Source of the DNA: a virus
Length of the DNA: 26,025 nt
Virus record (IMG/VR): IMGVR_UViG_3300044695_003869
Coordinates: 1 to 26,025 of that record
Direction: 5' to 3' (one strand)
Shown: in pieces, positions 5,437-24,697 of the stretch
Position numbering within the stretch: position 1 is the stretch's first letter
Layout: the number at the start of each line of letters is the position of its first letter
Program-made: the position numbers and the translations under genes
The notes under the pieces: model-generated
Seen by the model: the letters and a program-made list of their open reading frames with translations, nothing else
What the model was told of the DNA's origin: nothing
Database searches by the model: none

Positions 5437-5625
5437 CCAGCCCCGGTCTTCGGCGGCTACCGCAGCGGTCTCGACTCGTCTAAGGGTCCAGCCTAAGTCA
5501 GCAGCCAGCGCAGCGGAGTGGTGGGCCTTGCCCTCACTCGACAGGAGGATGGATGACGCCACCATTCTCCGGAGGTCCGGCTCCTGCTCGCTATCGCGGA
5601 TCTCGATCAGGCGCTCGCGGGTCAT
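5407..5625 (-). CDS. Small winged-helix-like protein
   Basis: 72 aa. The second half, SAALAADLGWTLRRVETAAV then EDRGWL, has the spacing of a winged helix-turn-helix recognition unit. No other domain is visible. I chose the ATG at 5625, which overlaps the ParB-like stop as ATGA; an upstream GTG at 5637 would add four residues. It is last in the leftward run 7991-5407 and converges with the coiled-coil gene, overlapping it by 30 bp with no terminator visible. Probably a DNA-binding regulator; target unknown. Confidence 0.6.
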   Translation of the reverse strand: MTRERLIEIRDSEQEPDLRRMVASSILLSSEGKAHHSAALAADLGWTLRRVETAAVAAEDRGWLSLAPKRRV

Positions 5626-6221
5626 GTCTGGGCACACGCCTCGACGATTCGTAGCGCCTGTTCGGAGTCGTCTAGGCCGCTCAGGAGGTCACGGATGACT
5701 TCCGCCTGTTCGGTCCTAGCCACGATCCTTACCTCCACGGTCTCGGGCGGCTCATCAGGCAGGTCCGTTACATCCTCAGGCTCAGGGCGCTCAGGTGTCG
5801 GCGGCTCGTAGCCTCCCATGTCCAGCAGGTCGTTCAACTCGGCCTTGCCCATGCTCAGGCGCTTACCAATCTCCTCAGGCTCTATCCGGGCAGCGATGTC
5901 TGCCAGCAGGTGCGCCAGCCTCACCGGGACGAACTTTCCTCGCAGACGGTTCATGGTCAGCATTCTAAGGCGGGCGTCCGTCTCTCCGGCCTCCTCGACC
6001 ACGCAGGGCACCGTCTCGGCCCCCAACTCGCCCAGCACCCTCCAACGATGCTCTCCGTCTATCAGGCGGTAGCCACCCTCGACGGGCCTCACCAGAACCG
6101 GTTGGACGAAGCCCCGGCGGCGGATGTCGTCTTTCAGGGCTTCCAGCATCTCGCCGCTCATCTCGTTGGGGTTCTCCGGGTCCGGCTCGATGTTCCCGTG
6201 CGGGATGTCCTCGACCTTCAT
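5622..6221 (-). CDS. ParB-like nuclease-domain protein, copy 1
   Basis: 199 aa. The N-terminal 105 residues are a ParB/sulfiredoxin-fold domain: IEPDPENPNEMS, then a DDIRRRGFVQPVLVRP segment, then GGYRLIDGEHRWRVL with the nucleotide-binding box GEHR at 56-59. A possible HTH follows (EIGKRLSMGKAELNDLL, about 117-133), then a proline/acid-rich linker and a short C-terminal domain. ParB-fold proteins bind CTP or act as nucleases; free-standing phage versions are common and their role is poorly defined. It is coupled by ATGA overlap to the DUF6321 gene upstream. A close paralogue lies at 7329-7991. Confidence 0.85.
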   Translation of the reverse strand: MKVEDIPHGNIEPDPENPNEMSGEMLEALKDDIRRRGFVQPVLVRPVEGGYRLIDGEHRWRVLGELGAETVPCVVEEAGETDARLRMLTMNRLRGKFVPVRLAHLLADIAARIEPEEIGKRLSMGKAELNDLLDMGGYEPPTPERPEPEDVTDLPDEPPETVEVRIVARTEQAEVIRDLLSGLDDSEQALRIVEACAQT

Positions 6222-6601
6222 GCTTGCTTCCGGTCTAGTGCTTCCTTGCGGCGGCGGGCCTTAGCGGCTATTGCTTGCGCGGCAGCCCGCGTCTTTGGGA
6301 CAGGCTCGCCCCACGCGGTCGCCATCAGGGCCAGACGGGTCGGCTTACCGTTGTCATCTACGAGCGGACCCTTCGGATTCGTGTAGAAGCGGGTCGCCCA
6401 ACTAATCCACCGGCGCTTATCCCGGTCAGAGGCGGCGGAGTAGTTCTTCACCCCGGGGCGGATATTCGCACCCCCGGCTTTCAGGCTCTTCCTACCCTTA
6501 GCATTCAGGCCGCCCTTAGGGTTCTGGCCTTCCTTACGCGCCCACGCGGCCTCCTGTAACTCGATACCCCAGTCGTTCAGGTGTCGGAAGGCGTCGCTCA
6601 T
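6218..6601 (-). CDS. DUF6321-like protein
   Basis: 127 aa, basic. It shows the conserved blocks NPKGGLNAKGRKS (27-39) and RWISWATRFYTNPKGP (65-79), then PTRLALMATAWGEPVPKT, which I recognise as the DUF6321 pattern found in phages and some bacteria. Function is unknown; the density of Lys, Arg and Gly suggests nucleic-acid contact. The region before the ATG has no Shine-Dalgarno. Instead TAGGGT lies six bases upstream, inside a perfect 7-bp inverted repeat. Its stop overlaps the start of ParB-like copy 1. Confidence 0.75.
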   Translation of the reverse strand: MSDAFRHLNDWGIELQEAAWARKEGQNPKGGLNAKGRKSLKAGGANIRPGVKNYSAASDRDKRRWISWATRFYTNPKGPLVDDNGKPTRLALMATAWGEPVPKTRAAAQAIAAKARRRKEALDRKQA

Positions 6602-6628: not shown

Positions 6629-7285
6629 TCAGGCTAGGTCGAGATCTACGATGACGCGACCGAGCGGGTCAGTCTCGTCGTCAACGACTACGCCGACCGG
6701 AGTGTAAGCCGTGCCGCCCGCAGTGGTCGTAGCCACGGTGACGGTAGAGGCACCTCCGGTCAGGCTCGTCCCATTGGCCGTGAACTGGGCGACATTGGTG
6801 TCGGCCAGTGCGCCAGTGAAGGACACGGTGTAGACGCTCCCGACCTTGCCAACCGCTACATCTCCGACCCCGATGTTGCTCAGGGCTTCCAGCGCGGACA
6901 GGACCGCCGCCGCCGATGCGTTGTAAGCGATAGCAGTCGTGGTCTGACCGGAGAAGGTCAGCGTGAAGGTGCCGCCCGTAGCGTCAATCGTGACCGTCTG
7001 AACCTCGTCACTGGCCGAGTCACTGGTCAGCGTCGAGCCGTTCAGGTAGAGCAGGTCGCCCGTCGAGAAGACAGCGTCAACGGCAACTCGACCGCGCTTG
7101 ATGAGGAAGAACTCCTCGCCGTCCTCGATCACATCTTGGTCAGCAATGACGGAGTCGAACGAAGCGCCCTCCTGCTTGACGGCAACGCCGACGATGTTGT
7201 CTTCCTCGACCAGATCACCGTGTAGGTAGTCTCCGCCAGAGGAGTTGTCCGTGTAGAAGCCGCGAGTTTCTTGGTTGAAGGGCAT
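6629..7285 (-). CDS. Capsid decoration protein (DUF2190-like) with inserted Ig-like domain
   Basis: 218 aa. The N-terminal 90 residues and the last 25 (TPVGVVVDDETDPLGRVIVDL) have the layout of DUF2190-type head decoration proteins, in which a KxGDLLYL strand is normally followed quickly by a GVALxD strand. Between them, residues 93-190 are an extra beta domain (VQTVTIDATGGTFTLTFSG, then ALEALSNIGVGDVAV, then FTGALADTNV). This Ig-like module occurs in many actinobacteriophage structural proteins. It would decorate the capsid surface, and the insert would project outward. The gene stands apart from other head genes. No ribosome site is seen; TAAGAT lies six bases before the ATG. Confidence 0.75.
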   Translation of the reverse strand: MPFNQETRGFYTDNSSGGDYLHGDLVEEDNIVGVAVKQEGASFDSVIADQDVIEDGEEFFLIKRGRVAVDAVFSTGDLLYLNGSTLTSDSASDEVQTVTIDATGGTFTLTFSGQTTTAIAYNASAAAVLSALEALSNIGVGDVAVGKVGSVYTVSFTGALADTNVAQFTANGTSLTGGASTVTVATTTAGGTAYTPVGVVVDDETDPLGRVIVDLDLA

Positions 7286-7328: not shown

Positions 7329-7991
7329 TTACTCGTCAGCGGGCTTGGCCGGTAGGGTCTGACTCAGTATCTCGATCAAGGCATCGGCCCGGGTGACAGC
7401 CCCGGCTACCATGCGAGCCTCGATAGCCGCCTCGACGCTCTCGGCACCACTCGGGGTGAACCGCCATGAGAACACCTCAGGTTGCGGCTCGACCTCCTCA
7501 GTCACGGTAGCGATGTCCTCGTCAAGAGACTCGCCCGCCAGCACGGTCGTCAACTCGTCACCTTCCATGCCCAGCACCTCCGTCAGGGTTTCCTCGCCCA
7601 TCTCATCGGCTAGGCCGGAGACCACCCCAGCCAACTTGCCCGGGTCGAAGGATCCCCGCAACCGATTCATACTTACCATCCGTAAGCGGGCATCGTCCTC
7701 GGGTCGGTCGTCAACCACACAGGGCACGGTCTCGATGCCAGCATCTTTCAGGACGCGCCACCGATGCTCGCCGTCAATAATCGTGAACTGCCCCGGGCGA
7801 CCCTCGCCGTCATCGGTCGGGCGCACCAGCACAGGCTGGACGAACCCCTTATCTTGGATGTCCCGGCTCAGTGCTTCCAGCACGGACTCGGTCATCTCGT
7901 TTGGGTTGGAGGGGTCAGGCTCGATCCGGTCGGTCGGGATCTCGACCACCTCGACGGACTGCCTCCTCATGCTCTCGATGCTTTCGGGCAT
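7329..7991 (-). CDS. ParB-like nuclease-domain protein, copy 2
   Basis: 220 aa, clearly paralogous to the protein at 5622-6221 over the first 125 residues. It shares IEPDPxNPNEM, GFVQPVLVRP, IDGEHRWRVL (GEHR at 74-77), ETVPCVV and the RLRGxF block. The C-terminal 95 residues differ and are acidic. It has about 17 extra N-terminal residues and a longer loop before the GEHR strand. TATGAT lies six bases before the ATG, no Shine-Dalgarno is visible, and a strong terminator lies just upstream, so it starts its own transcription unit. With copy 1 it brackets the decoration and DUF6321 genes. Confidence 0.85.
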   Translation of the reverse strand: MPESIESMRRQSVEVVEIPTDRIEPDPSNPNEMTESVLEALSRDIQDKGFVQPVLVRPTDDGEGRPGQFTIIDGEHRWRVLKDAGIETVPCVVDDRPEDDARLRMVSMNRLRGSFDPGKLAGVVSGLADEMGEETLTEVLGMEGDELTTVLAGESLDEDIATVTEEVEPQPEVFSWRFTPSGAESVEAAIEARMVAGAVTRADALIEILSQTLPAKPADE

Positions 7992-8003: not shown

Positions 8004-8034
8004 CCGTCATGTCGGCTCAGTAAAGAGAAACCGC

Positions 8035-8065
8035 CCGCGCCGAGGGGGGAGGAAACTCAGCGCGG
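8035..8065 (-). terminator. Rho-independent terminator after the Rpf-like lysin gene
   Basis: Read on the minus strand, CCGCGCTGAG (8065-8056) pairs with CTCGGCGCGG (8044-8035) over 10 bp with one wobble, followed by GCGGTTTCTCTTTAC, a U-rich tail. A smaller hairpin with a TTTC loop (8097-8078) precedes it. It separates the lysin gene from ParB-like copy 2. Confidence 0.78.
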
Positions 8066-8125
8066 ACGGCTCCCAAGCCCTGACCGAAAGGTCAAGGTTC
8101 CTCACACTACTGCCTCAATCGGCGG

Positions 8126-8671
8126 CTACGCGCAACCCCACGGAGAGGTGCCGTAGAGTGAAAGCAACCGGTTGGCTACCTTCATCTGCTGCCGCCATGT
8201 GGCATACCCGGCATTGCTCGGCATACCCGGATACTTATACCCGGACCAAGTCCCATACCAGAATCCGAGGCCGCCCTGATAGGTCGGCCCGGTGTGTGAC
8301 CAGTTGATGCCCATGTAGCCCGGACCCGGCTGCTCACAGCGACCGATGGCGATCCACAGGTCATGGTTCGGCGGCAACAGACTCCGCTTGACCTTGCCCC
8401 AACGAACCTTCATCACGGATCTGTGATTGGGTCCGGCGGCGCACTTCAACATGTGCCGGTGCTTGGCCTTAGCCCCTTGCGGGATCTTGGACTCACCAAC
8501 AAACTGGCGGCTCCACTCCCTGTGACTCTCAGCGGTGTGTAGGTGGTCATGGCCGCCACAGGAAGCACTGGCCTGAGGCGAGTCCGGCTTGCCCGGACCG
8601 ATGATCGTAGCCGACGCTGGGGCGATTATCAGGGTGCCCAGCAGCGCCAACGACGCTATGATTGTTCGCAT
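8126..8671 (-). CDS. Secreted Rpf-fold transglycosylase/lysozyme (lysin)
   Basis: 181 aa. The N-terminus is a Sec signal peptide: a short basic start, a hydrophobic core at residues 4-18 and PASA just before a likely cleavage site after Ala21. Residues 103-180 follow the resuscitation-promoting-factor fold: LWIAIGRCEQPG with the catalytic-position Glu113, INWSHTGPTYQGGLGF, then ATWRQQMKVANRLL and a terminal PWGC. Cys112 and Cys180 match the conserved Rpf disulfide. It should cleave the glycan strand of peptidoglycan outside the membrane. Residues 35-100 have no known fold. TATGCT lies six bases before the ATG. The two-helix membrane protein upstream makes a lysis pair likely. Confidence 0.8.
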   Translation of the reverse strand: MRTIIASLALLGTLIIAPASATIIGPGKPDSPQASASCGGHDHLHTAESHREWSRQFVGESKIPQGAKAKHRHMLKCAAGPNHRSVMKVRWGKVKRSLLPPNHDLWIAIGRCEQPGPGYMGINWSHTGPTYQGGLGFWYGTWSGYKYPGMPSNAGYATWRQQMKVANRLLSLYGTSPWGCA

Positions 8672-8677
8672 TCCATT

Positions 8678-8707
8678 AGCATATCCTCACCGTCGGAGGT
8701 ATGCCAG
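8678..8707 (-). promoter_or_regulatory. Promoter of the lysin gene, leaderless geometry
   Basis: CTGGCA (8707-8702), an 18-bp spacer and TATGCT (8683-8678) on the minus strand. The -10 ends six bases before the ATG, so transcription would begin at or next to the start codon. Confidence 0.55.
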
Positions 8708-8708
8708 A

Positions 8709-8858
8709 TCAGCGCATTACGGCATGAACGATTGCGGTGACCGCAACCAGAATGAAGGCAGCCTGAATGAACGGGTTGTTCCCGAAGGACCGGTGGGGGC
8801 TAATCGCGCCCAGCACGAGCAGGACCGCGACGGAGATTACGAAGGCTACCTCGGTCAC
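8709..8858 (-). CDS. Two-helix small membrane protein, holin candidate
   Basis: 49 aa from the GTG at 8858, which overlaps the upstream regulator's stop as GTGA. A farther ATG (8918) would add 20 charged residues and a long overlap. Two hydrophobic segments (EVAFVISVAVLLVLGAI and FIQAAFILVAVTAIVHAVM) are joined by a short polar turn (SPHRSFGNNP), the form of a class II-type holin. It lies directly before the secreted lysin. A signal-peptide lysin needs only membrane depolarisation, so a pinholin role would fit. No sequence family is recognised and the function is inferred from topology and position. Confidence 0.55.
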   Translation of the reverse strand: MTEVAFVISVAVLLVLGAISPHRSFGNNPFIQAAFILVAVTAIVHAVMR

Positions 8859-9082
8859 CGTCTGCGCTTCTCTTCGGCCCGCTTGTGGGCCAGCCTTTCC
8901 ACATCCTCGCGCAACCATACACGGGTGGCCCTGAGCCTTGCTACCGGCGGCGGCATCACTCCGGTCCTGACATAGCGGGCGATCCGGGTTCTCTCGACCC
9001 CGAGGATTTCACTGGCTTCCATTGCCCCGACCAGATCCCCGGAGGTCTCTGGGGTGCGGCGGATCTCGACGAACTCTGCCAT
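8855..9082 (-). CDS. MerR/AlpA-like HTH protein
   Basis: 75 aa. Residues 18-60 form a MerR-type winged helix: MEASEILGVERTRIARYVRTGVMPPPV, then RVWLREDVERLA, the layout used by excisionases and AlpA-like regulators. Short basic tail. No integrase is seen in the window, so an excisionase role is not supported and a transcriptional or DNA-bending role is as likely. It is coupled to both neighbours: its ATG overlaps the upstream membrane-protein stop (TGATG) and its stop overlaps the holin-candidate GTG. Confidence 0.72.
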   Translation of the reverse strand: MAEFVEIRRTPETSGDLVGAMEASEILGVERTRIARYVRTGVMPPPVARLRATRVWLREDVERLAHKRAEEKRRR

Positions 9083-9264
9083 CAGGCCACAGGCTCCCGG
9101 TCCCTGATGAGGAACTCGTGATCGCTACGGAGGGAGGTTAGGCCAGCCTCCGGCTCCGGCTCCATTGTCAGTTGTTGGTGATCCTGATAGCGCCGGGTGG
9201 ACGCTCGGTATGCGGCGACACCGATTACGACAAACACCGACAGGACCGATAGCAAGATGACCAT
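9082..9264 (-). CDS. Single-pass small membrane protein
   Basis: 60 aa from the ATG at 9264. One transmembrane helix at the N-terminus (MVILLSVLSVFVVIGVAAY) is followed by a charged cytoplasmic or external tail. A first in-frame ATG at 9300 would add a 12-residue basic leader, but it overlaps another small frame and has no ribosome site; AGAGACGAGG lies just before 9264. The N-in single-helix plan fits accessory lysis (antiholin-like) or superinfection-exclusion proteins, but no family is recognised. Coupled by TGATG to the HTH gene. Confidence 0.55.
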   Translation of the reverse strand: MVILLSVLSVFVVIGVAAYRASTRRYQDHQQLTMEPEPEAGLTSLRSDHEFLIRDREPVA

Positions 9265-9287
9265 CTTCCTCGTCTCTCTTGGTCGGG

Positions 9288-9377
9288 CTAGGCTACGCAT
9301 CGTAGCACGGGTCCAAGCGCCATCAAGATGATGAACGCTGCCAGAAGGCAGAGCCTGAATACTCGCTCAGGCCGCAT
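9288..9377 (-). CDS. Possible 29-aa membrane peptide
   Basis: A short frame starts within the last codons of the RusA gene (11-nt overlap) and ends at 9288. It encodes a basic start (MRPERVFR) and one hydrophobic stretch (LCLLAAFIILMALGPVL). It fills the only gap in this otherwise gapless run. There is no ribosome site of its own, so it would depend on coupling. The hydrophobic coding and position make it possible, not certain. Confidence 0.3.
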   Translation of the reverse strand: MRPERVFRLCLLAAFIILMALGPVLRCVA

Positions 9378-17425: not shown

Positions 17426-17451
17426 GAGGCCGCCCGGCGAAAGGCGGCCTC
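17426..17451 (-). terminator. Perfect 9-bp hairpin before recT
   Basis: GAGGCCGCC (17426-17434) and GGCGGCCTC (17443-17451) are perfectly complementary with an 8-nt loop. On the minus strand the following bases are TGTCGTTGTCG, only mildly T-rich. It either ends lysis-gene transcription or attenuates the recT leader. Confidence 0.5.
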
Positions 17452-17681: not shown

Positions 17682-18173
17682 CTACCAGCGAGCGCGGTAG
17701 TTCCGGGCGTCGGTGTGGGCGCTACCCGACGGATAGTGCCCGATCCCGTGGTTTGCCCAGATCTTCTGAATGGCGGCCTCAAACCGATCCCGACCAAACC
17801 TGTTGATGGTCTCGACCGACCAGTCACAGGCATCCGCACTCATATGCCGTGAGGCGGAAGCGCCACCGACGGCAGCGTTGTGAGCCGGGGAGCGGTAATA
17901 CGAGAGGGCACCAAGCGGCTTGTCACCGAGTTGATGACGGAGCCTCTCACACAGGAACGCCTGACGCTGGGCGTTCTTCCTCAGCGACTCAGGGACCGGG
18001 GTTCCGTCCTTGCTGGCCCACTCCTGCCGGGTGAAGTTCGGGCTGACATAGCCATGCTTCCAGCAGAACCTCTTGAACCGGCGCGACCGGCTGGCCCGCC
18101 TGCCATATGGGTGTTCCCACATATTGCGGAAGCGGTGCCGCTTACCCAGTTTCGACTCTGGGAACCTAGCCAT
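17682..18173 (-). CDS. M15-family peptidase (endolysin component)
   Basis: 163 aa. The C-terminal 90 residues follow Peptidase_M15 (VanY/D-Ala-D-Ala carboxypeptidase fold): LSYYRSPAHNAAVGGASASRHMSADACD gives the zinc ligands His110 and Asp117, and GSAHTDAR supplies His153. The N-terminal 50 residues are strongly basic with a KRFCWKHGYVSPNFTRQEW block that may bind cell wall or DNA. It would cut peptide stems in peptidoglycan. No signal peptide, so it needs the holin. The ATG overlaps the holin stop by 8 nt. With the amidase two genes upstream, it gives this phage two peptidoglycan-peptide hydrolases in one operon. Confidence 0.83.
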   Translation of the reverse strand: MARFPESKLGKRHRFRNMWEHPYGRRASRSRRFKRFCWKHGYVSPNFTRQEWASKDGTPVPESLRKNAQRQAFLCERLRHQLGDKPLGALSYYRSPAHNAAVGGASASRHMSADACDWSVETINRFGRDRFEAAIQKIWANHGIGHYPSGSAHTDARNYRARW

Positions 18174-18381
18174 CGGACTTCATGTATCCGGCTGCGAAAG
18201 CGATGACGGTAGCCAGCGCAGCGGCAACATCCGAGGGGAGGTCAACGCCCACCTGAGCCAGTCCGAAGACCAGCAGCACCGACAGGGCACCGCCCAGTCC
18301 GGCGGCCTTGACCTTAGGCGCGACGCTCAGTTTGCCGAGTTGCTCTTCGGTGGGTCCGGGATCTCCTGCGAGGTGTTCCAT
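18166..18381 (-). CDS. Holin
   Basis: 71 aa. A charged N-terminal 25 residues is followed by two hydrophobic helices (GLGGALSVLLVFGLAQVGV and AAALATVIAFAAGYM) with a short turn (DLPSD), ending in KSDG. This is the usual form of small actinobacteriophage holins. It lies between an amidase and an M15 peptidase, both lacking export signals, so it is the natural pore former. AAAGGAC eight bases upstream of the ATG is a good ribosome site, just after the amidase stop. Confidence 0.75.
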   Translation of the reverse strand: MEHLAGDPGPTEEQLGKLSVAPKVKAAGLGGALSVLLVFGLAQVGVDLPSDVAAALATVIAFAAGYMKSDG

Positions 18382-18383
18382 GT

Positions 18384-19034
18384 TCAGATGTCCTTTCCGA
18401 GGCGGGGGATGAGGTTCTTGCCGGGGCAGTCGGTGGGGTTCAGTTCGTAGTGGCCGTAAAGCGGCTTATCGGCAACGCCGAGGATCTCCCGTGCCCGGCG
18501 GCAGCCAGTGAGTCCGGCTTTGGTGGGCTTGCTGACATCGTAGTTTCCGTCGAGTGCCCAACCGGCATAACCGGTGTTATGTCCTAGCGTGTGCGCTCCG
18601 ACATAGCGAGCCGGGCGGCCCTCGTAGATCCGACCTGACGGCATGACGACCAGTGCGTAGCCGATGTCCGTCCAACCGTTGTTCAGGTGAATCTGTTGTA
18701 GCGCCCTCATCCGCTCTTTCTCCTGCTCGACCGTTGCCTTCGCAGGCAGGGTCGGCATGGCGGTGTGGTGCTGGACGCCAGCGTTGAGACTGACCTGAGT
18801 CGAGTAGGAACCGTTAGGCTCGGCAGCACCCCACTCCTCGCGGGAGTAGACCTTCGTCAGTTGGCGCTCCTTGACGGCCTGCTCGATCAGTTTGTTCAGG
18901 TGTGCGATCTTGGCCTGATTCTTCTGGAAGGCTTTGAGGTGACCCTTGCGCCCAGTCTTTTGGTAGCGGGCGTAGTTGCGAGCGCGGGCCTTGCGGCGGC
19001 GGTCACGCTTGCGGATAAGTTTGCTGAGTTTCAT
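18384..19034 (-). CDS. N-acetylmuramoyl-L-alanine amidase (endolysin)
   Basis: 216 aa. An unusual N-terminal 55 residues is extremely basic and helical (KLIRKRDRRRKARARN, then a coiled stretch). Residues 60-216 are an Amidase_2/PGRP domain: zinc ligands at VQHHTA (His89/90) and GHYELNPTDCPG (His195, Cys203), with GYALVVMPSGRIYEGRP and GAHTLGHNTGYAGWALDGN between. It cleaves the bond between MurNAc and L-Ala. No signal peptide. AAAGGAGATAG before the ATG is a strong ribosome site. The basic N-terminus may bind the negatively charged envelope. First gene of the lysis module, directly after the tail-fibre gene. Confidence 0.88.
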   Translation of the reverse strand: MKLSKLIRKRDRRRKARARNYARYQKTGRKGHLKAFQKNQAKIAHLNKLIEQAVKERQLTKVYSREEWGAAEPNGSYSTQVSLNAGVQHHTAMPTLPAKATVEQEKERMRALQQIHLNNGWTDIGYALVVMPSGRIYEGRPARYVGAHTLGHNTGYAGWALDGNYDVSKPTKAGLTGCRRAREILGVADKPLYGHYELNPTDCPGKNLIPRLGKDI

Positions 19035-23049: not shown

Positions 23050-23612
23050 CAGAACGCCGCCTCCGGGTCCAGTTCGGCCTCAAACGGTATTGCCGTCCCA
23101 TCCGCAAGGATGACATCGAAAGAGATCGCCACTGCCGCATCCCCCTGAGGTGTCAGGCCATCGTCAATCACGATGTTCTCGACGGCAGAGATGGCCGGGT
23201 GGAATGTCAGGGCTTCCTCTATGTCAGATTCCAGCGCCGTAACATCGTCAGGGTTGCCGCCCAGAAAGTCGGTGACGGACTGACCTAGCCCAAACTCAGG
23301 CGGCTGGGCAACGGATGACCCCTGATGGGTCCGTAGACACTTCTCAATCCAAACGGTGATTGAAGCCTCACCACGCACCGTGGAAGGGCTGCGGCCCTCC
23401 ATGACGAAGTGCCCCTCGTCGAAGTCAAAGGCCCAGCCTCGACCAATCGGGGGCAGGTCAGCCTCAACGACCTCGACTTCCTCATCGCCTTCCAGAGATT
23501 CAATCTCTTCCAGTTCCTCAGTGCTGGCGTCTAGCAGCGCCTGAGCATCCAGTTCGCCCTCGCCGGGGAACAGTTCCTCGATCTCTATGGGTTCTTCTGG
23601 CAGGTCACTCAT
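23049..23612 (-). CDS. Baseplate wedge protein, gp46/XkdS (DUF2634)-like
   Basis: 187 aa. Residues 57-150 match the gp25/XkdS-type wedge fold: GWAFDFDEGHFVMEGR, an EASITVWIEKCLRT helix, SSVAQPPEFGLGQSVTDFLGG, then DIEEALTFHPAISAVENI. The first 50 residues are a very acidic extension (PEEPIEIEELFPGEGELD, EELEEIESLEGDEEVEVV) not usual for the family. In Mu and PBSX this gene comes just before baseplate J, as here. It is coupled to the glycosyltransferase gene upstream (ATGA) and to baseplate J downstream. Confidence 0.78.
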   Translation of the reverse strand: MSDLPEEPIEIEELFPGEGELDAQALLDASTEELEEIESLEGDEEVEVVEADLPPIGRGWAFDFDEGHFVMEGRSPSTVRGEASITVWIEKCLRTHQGSSVAQPPEFGLGQSVTDFLGGNPDDVTALESDIEEALTFHPAISAVENIVIDDGLTPQGDAAVAISFDVILADGTAIPFEAELDPEAAF

Positions 23613-24697
23613 AGGCTCAGTTTATCCCGGGTATCGAGCAGAGGCCCGTAGCGATGAGTGGACAGGCCAGACCAGTCTGAGAACCAGCCCTCATCAGCCA
23701 GCGTTGCCAACTGATCGAAGTAGGCTTCATACTTGGGTCTAACCGCGTCGTATGTGTAGTTAGCAACGGCGTGTGCCCTGATCTTGGAGCGGTCGAGATC
23801 CGAGCATCGCTCGACGGCATCGCAGAACTCACCCAGCGTTCGTGCCCGGTAGCCGGTGAGTCCGTGGATGTTGGTCTCAGGGAACGCCCCAAAGTCTGTG
23901 GTCACGGTCGGGCAGCCCGCACTCAGGTGGGCCTCGGGGACGATGTTGCCGAAAGGCTCTGAGTAGGTAGTGGGCGCGAGCAGGGCCGTGGCTCCGGCCA
24001 TCAGTGCGTTGCGCTCTTCTGGCTCTACTGCGCCGATGTATTCAGCGAGTTTGTAGCGCGGTCGGTAGTCGCCCTCACCAGCCAAGATGATCGTCATGCC
24101 CAACCTACGGGCGGTCTCGATAGCAACGCTTACACCCTTGCGCTCAATCAGTCGCCCGACATAAAGGAGGTAACCCATATCGTCGGCCTCATCGGGGAAC
24201 TCTGAGAGGTTGAAGTATCCCGGTATCACCGTGTCGTAGAAGGGTGGGTCAATGGTTCCGATGCCGCCACTTGCCTCTCGCCCATAGGTGGCGTTCATCC
24301 ATGCGTAGGACTCAAACACCCGGTGGACCCACTTCATGCTACCCGGGTAGCCTATCCCCAACTCAAAAGGAGTCAACTCCGGAAGTTGGTTGACCAGTTC
24401 GGCCTGACAGATACCCCCGGGTAGGGCGAGCAAGTCACCCGGCTCGGCCCGCTCTGCGATCTCGACTATGGCCTGCTCGTTGCTCGCCGCCCAACCCTCT
24501 TGGGTGAACTCTGGTGGTTCCTGCTCGTCGTAGCAGGCGACATAGTTCGGCAGGTCGTCGTGCCGGGGATCGCCGTAGACGATGACCTCGATGCCCTCCA
24601 TCATCTCGGGAAAGCGCACCACCTTGTTGGTGAAGGCGCAAGTCGAGTTAGCCTTAGTGACGGGCTGGCCGGGAAGTGCTGGTAGGTGAACCTTCAC
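23609..24697 (-). CDS. GT4-type glycosyltransferase
   Basis: 362 aa. It has a GT-B fold, glycosyltransferase family 4: the C-terminal half has YLLYVGRLIERKGVSVAIE (177-194), LAGEGDY, a GAVEPEERNALMAGATALLAPT segment and the EX7E motif E247-x7-E255 (SEPFGNIVPEAHLSAGCPTVTTDFGAFPE). The N-terminal acceptor domain is less conserved. No signal or membrane segment, so it acts in the cytoplasm with a nucleotide-sugar donor. It is coupled on both sides (GTGA, ATGA) to tail genes, so it is part of the tail operon; virion protein glycosylation is the most economical role. Host-envelope modification is the alternative. Confidence 0.85.
   Translation of the reverse strand: MKVHLPALPGQPVTKANSTCAFTNKVVRFPEMMEGIEVIVYGDPRHDDLPNYVACYDEQEPPEFTQEGWAASNEQAIVEIAERAEPGDLLALPGGICQAELVNQLPELTPFELGIGYPGSMKWVHRVFESYAWMNATYGREASGGIGTIDPPFYDTVIPGYFNLSEFPDEADDMGYLLYVGRLIERKGVSVAIETARRLGMTIILAGEGDYRPRYKLAEYIGAVEPEERNALMAGATALLAPTTYSEPFGNIVPEAHLSAGCPTVTTDFGAFPETNIHGLTGYRARTLGEFCDAVERCSDLDRSKIRAHAVANYTYDAVRPKYEAYFDQLATLADEGWFSDWSGLSTHRYGPLLDTRDKLSL

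Follow-up and report, generated by a model that had tools for sequence, protein, structure and literature searches.

Exported Rpf-type enzyme apart from the lysis genes

The viral fragment analysed here in full (the window: 26,025 bases from IMG/VR, G+C 62%) was found to encode an exported Rpf-type transglycosylase, SP-Rpf, at a distance from its lysis genes. Judging from sequence, we favour, if only slightly, the reading that SP-Rpf is a Sec-exported and holin-independent lytic transglycosylase of the Rpf fold, which would act as a helper in wall remodelling and not as a second complete lysis system. The positions of the features discussed are given in Table 1. A near-identical twin of the window is present as contig IMGVR_UViG_3300034104_002747, and the window had no match in phage records when compared at the DNA level.

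Table 1. Positions of the features considered in the window, with the evidence for each
Feature	Position	Strand	Evidence
ParB-like protein	7329..7991	-	PF02195, E 4.1e-15; first gene past the hairpin
Terminator-like hairpin directly 3′ of the SP-Rpf gene	8026..8074	-	19-pair stem, 11-nt loop, then CTTTACT; z-score -4.56
Exported Rpf-type transglycosylase (SP-Rpf), 181 aa	8126..8671	-	PF06737, PHROG, PDB sequence hits, AF2 fold, viral relatives
Rpf/transglycosylase domain, residues 104-180	8132..8362	-	Pfam, PDB matches, alignment, fold
N-terminal helical domain, residues 37-100	8372..8563	-	kept in six viral proteins; model helices
Predicted Sec signal peptide, residues 1-21, cleavage between APASA and T	8609..8671	-	sequence inspection
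Two-helix membrane protein, about 49 aa	8709..8858	-	two hydrophobic segments; GTG start
Small HTH protein, excisionase/MerR-like	8855..9082	-	MerR_1, E 2.7e-5, over cut-off; HTH_17; phrog_4691 excisionase, E 1.5e-6
Small protein, single N-terminal hydrophobic segment	9082..9300	-	no family over cut-off (Pfam, PHROG)
Terminator-like hairpin between lysis cassette and RecT	17426..17451	-	10-pair stem; z-score -2.84
M15 peptidase (Peptidase_M15_3)	17682..18173	-	PF08291, E 2.7e-11
Holin	18166..18381	-	phrog_9284, E 3.1e-13
Amidase_2 endolysin	18384..19034	-	PF01510, E 2.8e-7; phrog_1493, E 3.1e-21

The original prediction of a signal-peptide Rpf-type transglycosylase was borne out by several lines of evidence. 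The C-terminal part matches PF06737 with an E-value of 2.4e-6 and 28.5 bits against the curated cut-off of 27, the PHROG match is a 'transglycosylase', and the sequence matches in the PDB are RpfE, RpfC and RpfB of M. tuberculosis. The 15 best PDB fold matches of the AF2 model (pLDDT 83) were all to Rpf structures, with probabilities of 0.99-1.0 and TM-scores up to 0.79 (by target length) but E-values of only 3e-3 to 0.17. The predicted catalytic residue is Glu113 (8333-8335), and the cysteines lie just before it (Cys112) and near the C-terminus (Cys180), as in Rpf; in RpfB such a pair forms a disulfide. The C112-E113 pair is found in 58 of 58 aligned rows, a count that is biased by the retrieval of sequences with the CEQPG pattern; W178 is invariant and C180 is present.

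The N-terminus reads MRTIIASLALLGTLIIAPASA followed by T, and was taken by inspection as a predicted signal peptide with an A-x-A site. This site suggests cleavage; in a SAR endolysin the weakly hydrophobic N-terminal anchor is not cleaved. As judged by sequence and heuristic, SP-Rpf has one mark of an exported (signal-peptide) endolysin, being a muralytic enzyme that carries a cleavable Sec signal peptide. Between the signal peptide and the Rpf domain lies an N-terminal domain with the motif C-x-H-x2-W ... KHR ... CA ... M-x3-W and three confident helices in the predicted model. It is common to six family members, the window included; Pfam gave no match for it and the PDB search nothing credible.

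Rpf domains are already known in phages from tape measure proteins and some endolysins (PMC1796659, PMC3314691), and the nearest cultured-phage protein matches of SP-Rpf, which are weak, fall inside tape measure proteins. SP-Rpf might thus be an entry enzyme carried on the virion, opening the wall for injection of the DNA in the manner of the Rpf-like motif in mycobacteriophage tape measure proteins; this would agree with how common such domains are in the tape measure proteins of actinophages (PMC1796659). We regard this role as highly improbable, since SP-Rpf stands alone, has a cleavable-looking signal peptide and is encoded among DNA-metabolism genes rather than within a tail gene. Assignment to the tape-measure or virion-associated lysin class was also rejected, the ORF being separate and not a domain inside a tail protein.

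Gene order and putative transcription units

Almost all genes in the right-hand two thirds of the window are on the minus strand. Their order begins with tail and baseplate genes followed by the Amidase_2, holin (phrog_9284) and M15 peptidase genes, and continues with RecT, a PD-(D/E)XK exonuclease, a replication protein, a DnaC-like loader, a dNMP kinase, GP88 and RusA. After RusA there are small genes, then the Rpf gene and then ParB-like genes. The predicted amidase-holin-M15 cluster was confirmed by Pfam and PHROG matches, with about 9.0 kb between it and the gene for SP-Rpf.

Hairpins were found by a custom hairpin scan. The consensus promoter/terminator scan allows loops of up to 8, because of which it missed the hairpin that follows the SP-Rpf gene. 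From 22.8 to 6.1 kb there are only two strong intergenic hairpins on the minus strand, one before RecT and the other right after SP-Rpf. The simplest reading would therefore be, from these hairpins and the gene direction, that the Rpf gene closes a RecT-to-Rpf unit and is not transcribed within the lysis unit. It may be noted that operon structure here means hairpins plus gene direction, and a promoter inside the RecT-to-Rpf run would alter it. Also, downstream hairpins as strong as the one in the window are not general among the relatives outside lysis cassettes. Membership of SP-Rpf in the late lysis cassette was considered and rejected in view of the 9 kb distance and the separate unit marked by the hairpins. 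Since its gene is at the end of a recombination/replication unit, SP-Rpf is plausibly expressed on a schedule other than that of the late endolysins. The claim that the enzyme is separate from the lysis cassette holds in the window, and other phages show such a separation as well.

The host clues are mixed: baseplate J points to Firmicutes and haloarchaea, GP88 to the Streptomyces phage Gilgamesh, and the amidase to Streptomyces, Klebsiella and others. As a result, no host was assigned from these matches; judged from the enzyme family, an actinobacterial host is likely.

Some other genes of the window may be recorded here. The ParB-like proteins at 5622-6221 and 7329-7991 (minus strand) have closely similar N-terminal segments (IEPDPxNPNEM...LVRP) and are separated by a tail-like protein and a small gene without assignment. 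The tail-like product (6629-7285, minus strand) resembles major tail proteins (phrog_10909, E 3.4e-13) and lies among the ParB-like genes, far from the tail block. A glycosyltransferase of the 'moron' category (23609-24697, minus strand; phrog_3408, E 3.4e-47) is flanked by tail genes and a collagen-like/glycine-rich ORF.

Small genes upstream of the Rpf gene

The two-helix membrane protein predicted before the Rpf gene is real. Its open frame, 8709-8918 on the minus strand, reaches an ATG at 8918, but the likelier start is the GTG at 8858-8856, which overlaps the stop codon TGA of the HTH gene (GTGA) and gives a product of 49 aa. The original prediction also placed a further one or two small membrane proteins here. 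Only the gene furthest upstream agrees with this, having a hydrophobic segment, while its neighbour encodes a soluble HTH protein of the MerR_1/HTH_17/excisionase type.

Were the two-helix protein to act as holin or pinholin, with the Rpf enzyme as the exported endolysin that goes with it, the genes would form a second dedicated lysis module for backup lysis. The arrangement itself speaks for this, as a two-helix ORF is directly upstream of the Rpf gene in 16 of the 16 relatives that are found in lysis cassettes. Yet the two-helix protein of the window has no Pfam match up to an E-value of 1 and no PHROG match up to 5, which leaves it outside the holin families, and its only relative in the viral collection is in the twin contig. 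Among the 39 other relatives outside lysis cassettes, none has a two-helix neighbour directly upstream. Moreover, one of the supposed membrane proteins within the run binds DNA, conservation gives no support for the three small genes as one module, and a full cassette with a holin exists separately. A self-contained second lysis module, as originally proposed, is therefore quite unlikely.

Relatives of SP-Rpf

Relatives of SP-Rpf were found at 56 viral loci, the twin included, when IMG/VR was searched with a profile. Nearly all of them encode short proteins with a signal peptide, a variable linker and an Rpf domain with the CEQPG insertion. By a simple heuristic rule, a signal peptide was found in 47 of the 56 loci as against 12.6% of background ORFs. 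The invariance of CEQPG is partly built in because the retrieval patterns contain part of the motif; GG, W142 and W178 are conserved too, though absent from these patterns. Family proteins are 60-66% identical across contigs of 38-62% G+C, and the window protein is 60-64% identical to relatives whose contigs have 51% and 38% G+C. When the same comparisons were made by codon position, the identity was only 0.38-0.49 at the third position and 0.76-0.80 at the second. The protein has thus remained similar while third codon positions diverged, which points to purifying selection on SP-Rpf.

We also scanned 84,980 prokaryote species (one genome each) twice with short peptide patterns. The 15 and 98 pattern matches obtained included no relative, where more distant cellular Rpfs are missed by design since the patterns are short. 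Ordinary actinobacterial Rpfs do exist, as seen from plasmid matches in Arthrobacter and Dietzia (about 41%). Within the limits of this short-pattern search, the CEQPG branch is apparently restricted to phages. In a tree of the core domain, which has few columns and whose deep forks were not used, the nearest relatives of the window are L013, L003 and L015 (96/93). The neighbouring ParB-like protein has as relatives the twin contig and one distant ParB.

Genomic placement of the relatives

Three kinds of placement were seen. The first is made of 16 contigs that form one branch (94/86). Here the tail genes are followed by a lysis cassette of a CHAP endolysin (PHROG endolysin, E 1.6e-7), then a two-helix holin-like protein and last the exported Rpf, separated in most by a few bases. 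In L029, where the lysis cassette likewise has the exported Rpf at its end, a tyrosine integrase (5748-6563, minus strand) lies between this cassette and the tail genes. In the second kind, which takes in most other contigs and the window, the Rpf gene lies among DNA-metabolism genes or beside a recombinase; in the branch nearest to the window it is outside the lysis cassette. The order of lysis genes, DNA metabolism and SP-Rpf is shared by the window and five other records, and a holin of the same family precedes the Rpf gene by 7.5-9.6 kb on one strand in G005, G006, G007, G009 and G014. The distance is 9.8 kb in L039 if this contig is circularly permuted, while L060 differs in having the holin 0.3 kb downstream of the Rpf gene. 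In the third kind (L057 and L063) the Rpf gene is in a tRNA cluster and the holin is far off.

The 16 cassette members support a helper role in lysis. They also argue against the alternative of a factor for lysogenic conversion or growth, whereby extra Rpf from a prophage or from early infection would keep host or neighbour cells growing or return them to growth. The placement near integrases in temperate relatives also suits such a lysogenic role and is a point against the helper. Of the 9 records that carry a recombinase, 7 have an integrase or resolvase no more than 2 kb from SP-Rpf (5 of 7 with related pairs counted once, P about 0.0025 against random placement), and in three records (L016, L039 and L061) an attP-like tRNA 3′-end sequence is close to both the integrase and the Rpf gene. 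In an M. abscessus prophage, a stand-alone gene for a 'resuscitation-promoting factor' is found next to terminase, with ParB-like genes close by. Two reports indicate that the Rpf level of the host is of importance to phages: 4 of 6 host rpf genes were up-regulated in the infection of Rhodococcus by phage WC1 (PMC10986025), and infection by phage is reduced in Rpf-deficient mycobacteria according to a conference report (PMC12908700). However, no integrase or resolvase was found in the window, which is a fragment. Taken together, we consider the growth-factor role unlikely. A broader idea is that phage-restricted exported Rpf-type factors, secreted early or from prophages, might revive slow or dormant cells or keep them active, whether infected or neighbouring, and so counter dormancy as a refuge from infection; this seems improbable.

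Exported partners and the proposed helper role

In two of the nearest relatives (L003, 1044-1640, and L013, 8550-9128) the product of the gene directly after Rpf is exported and has an NlpC/P60-like core. The matches (E 0.0037 and 0.02, respectively) are below cut-off, but the D-C-S-G and G-H-A-Y motifs are present. Among cultured phages, BRock and Alone3 of Streptomyces have directly before the exported Rpf-LysM, and about 1 kb before the endolysin, an exported protein that was called NlpC/P60-like from the D-C-S-G motif and a 'peptidase' annotation. Therefore, two phage groups with different Rpf sequences both appear to pair the activities that mycobacteria pair as RpfB-RipA. The suggestion that the enzyme might remodel the wall fits with this pairing. 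In L015 the next gene after Rpf (8234-8698) encodes an exported protein without family match, and its likeness to a 3D/RlpA-type barrel was seen by eye only.

For the holin-independent wall helper that we favour, the following sequence of events may be proposed. SP-Rpf would be made independently of the late lysis genes, would cross the membrane by Sec without a holin and would be matured by signal peptidase. The mature enzyme would then reside in the wall, cutting glycan strands from outside and loosening the wall without immediate lysis. Once the holin releases the amidase and the M15 peptidase, SP-Rpf would become fully effective and complement these peptide-cutting endolysins. By family chemistry, the amidase cuts the bond between glycan and stem peptide and the M15 enzyme cuts peptide bonds, and neither cuts glycan strands. 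Since the lysis cassette holds only such peptide-side cutters, the Rpf domain would supply the missing glycan cut. On their own, Rpf enzymes are weak and they work together with peptide-cutting hydrolases, so that early export would not have to lead to lysis; RpfB by itself has minimal activity on the wall and shows synergy with RipA (PMC2262848). Accumulation in the wall has a precedent among exported endolysins (PMC6116005).

The walls that phages of slow-growing environmental bacteria have to breach are often those of non-dividing cells. A holin-independent Rpf enzyme exported by the phage would, if true, provide a distinct route of wall preparation, and for temperate phages it would be a means of changing the growth state of the host. 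As the family is broad, with 56 loci, and apparently phage-restricted, and counterparts are carried by cultured phages of Rhodococcus and Streptomyces, the question of lysis helper or wake-up factor is directly testable.

Comparison with known systems

SP-Rpf is like the actinobacterial RpfB, RpfC and RpfE in its fold, the catalytic Glu beside a Cys, the GGL motif, the C-terminal W and Cys, and the export signal. Unlike these, it has the CEQPG insertion motif and an extra N-domain, and it falls far under the NCBIfam RpfC equivalog cut-off (27.8 bits against 200). Counterparts in cultured phages are gp46 of Rhodococcus phage Weasels2, gp43 of Streptomyces phage BRock, gp184 of Alone3 and gp102 of the prophage prophi79-1, which are known from annotation alone. 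Like SP-Rpf, each is a gene of its own with a signal peptide and an Rpf domain, and that of Weasels2 is 12 kb from lysin A. In contrast to SP-Rpf, the four proteins are canonical Rpfs without the CEQPG insertion or N-domain, and some have LysM. In prophi79-1 a run of ParB-like genes comparable to that of the window is near the Rpf gene. Gene 107 of Rhodococcus phage Shagrat (L073, 2995-3501), annotated as a glycosyltransferase, reads as an exported Rpf with a LysM-like tail. Databases thus already contain 'transglycosylase-like' proteins of uncultured phages as well as stand-alone exported Rpf genes of cultured ones; in the openly licensed literature we came across no study devoted to an exported phage Rpf with a gene of its own and none that treats such proteins as a class.

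Phage use of an Rpf-type catalytic domain is also seen in Rpf-like motif 1 of the Barnyard tape measure protein and in the LysA of Hammer-type mycobacteriophages (PMC3314691). The Barnyard motif differs from SP-Rpf in being embedded in a tail protein without signal peptide, and would act at entry if at all. The Hammer-type LysA is a modular endolysin in which the transglycosylase domain is flanked by others, as opposed to the small exported SP-Rpf. Sec export without a holin, as proposed here, has a precedent in Lys44 of phage fOg44 (PMC6116005). Lys44, however, is the endolysin of its phage, whereas the phage of the window has separate endolysins and the SP-Rpf gene is outside their cassette. 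As read from these sequence comparisons, what is new in the window gene is its apparently phage-restricted subfamily, its predicted new N-domain and its separation from the putative lysis unit.
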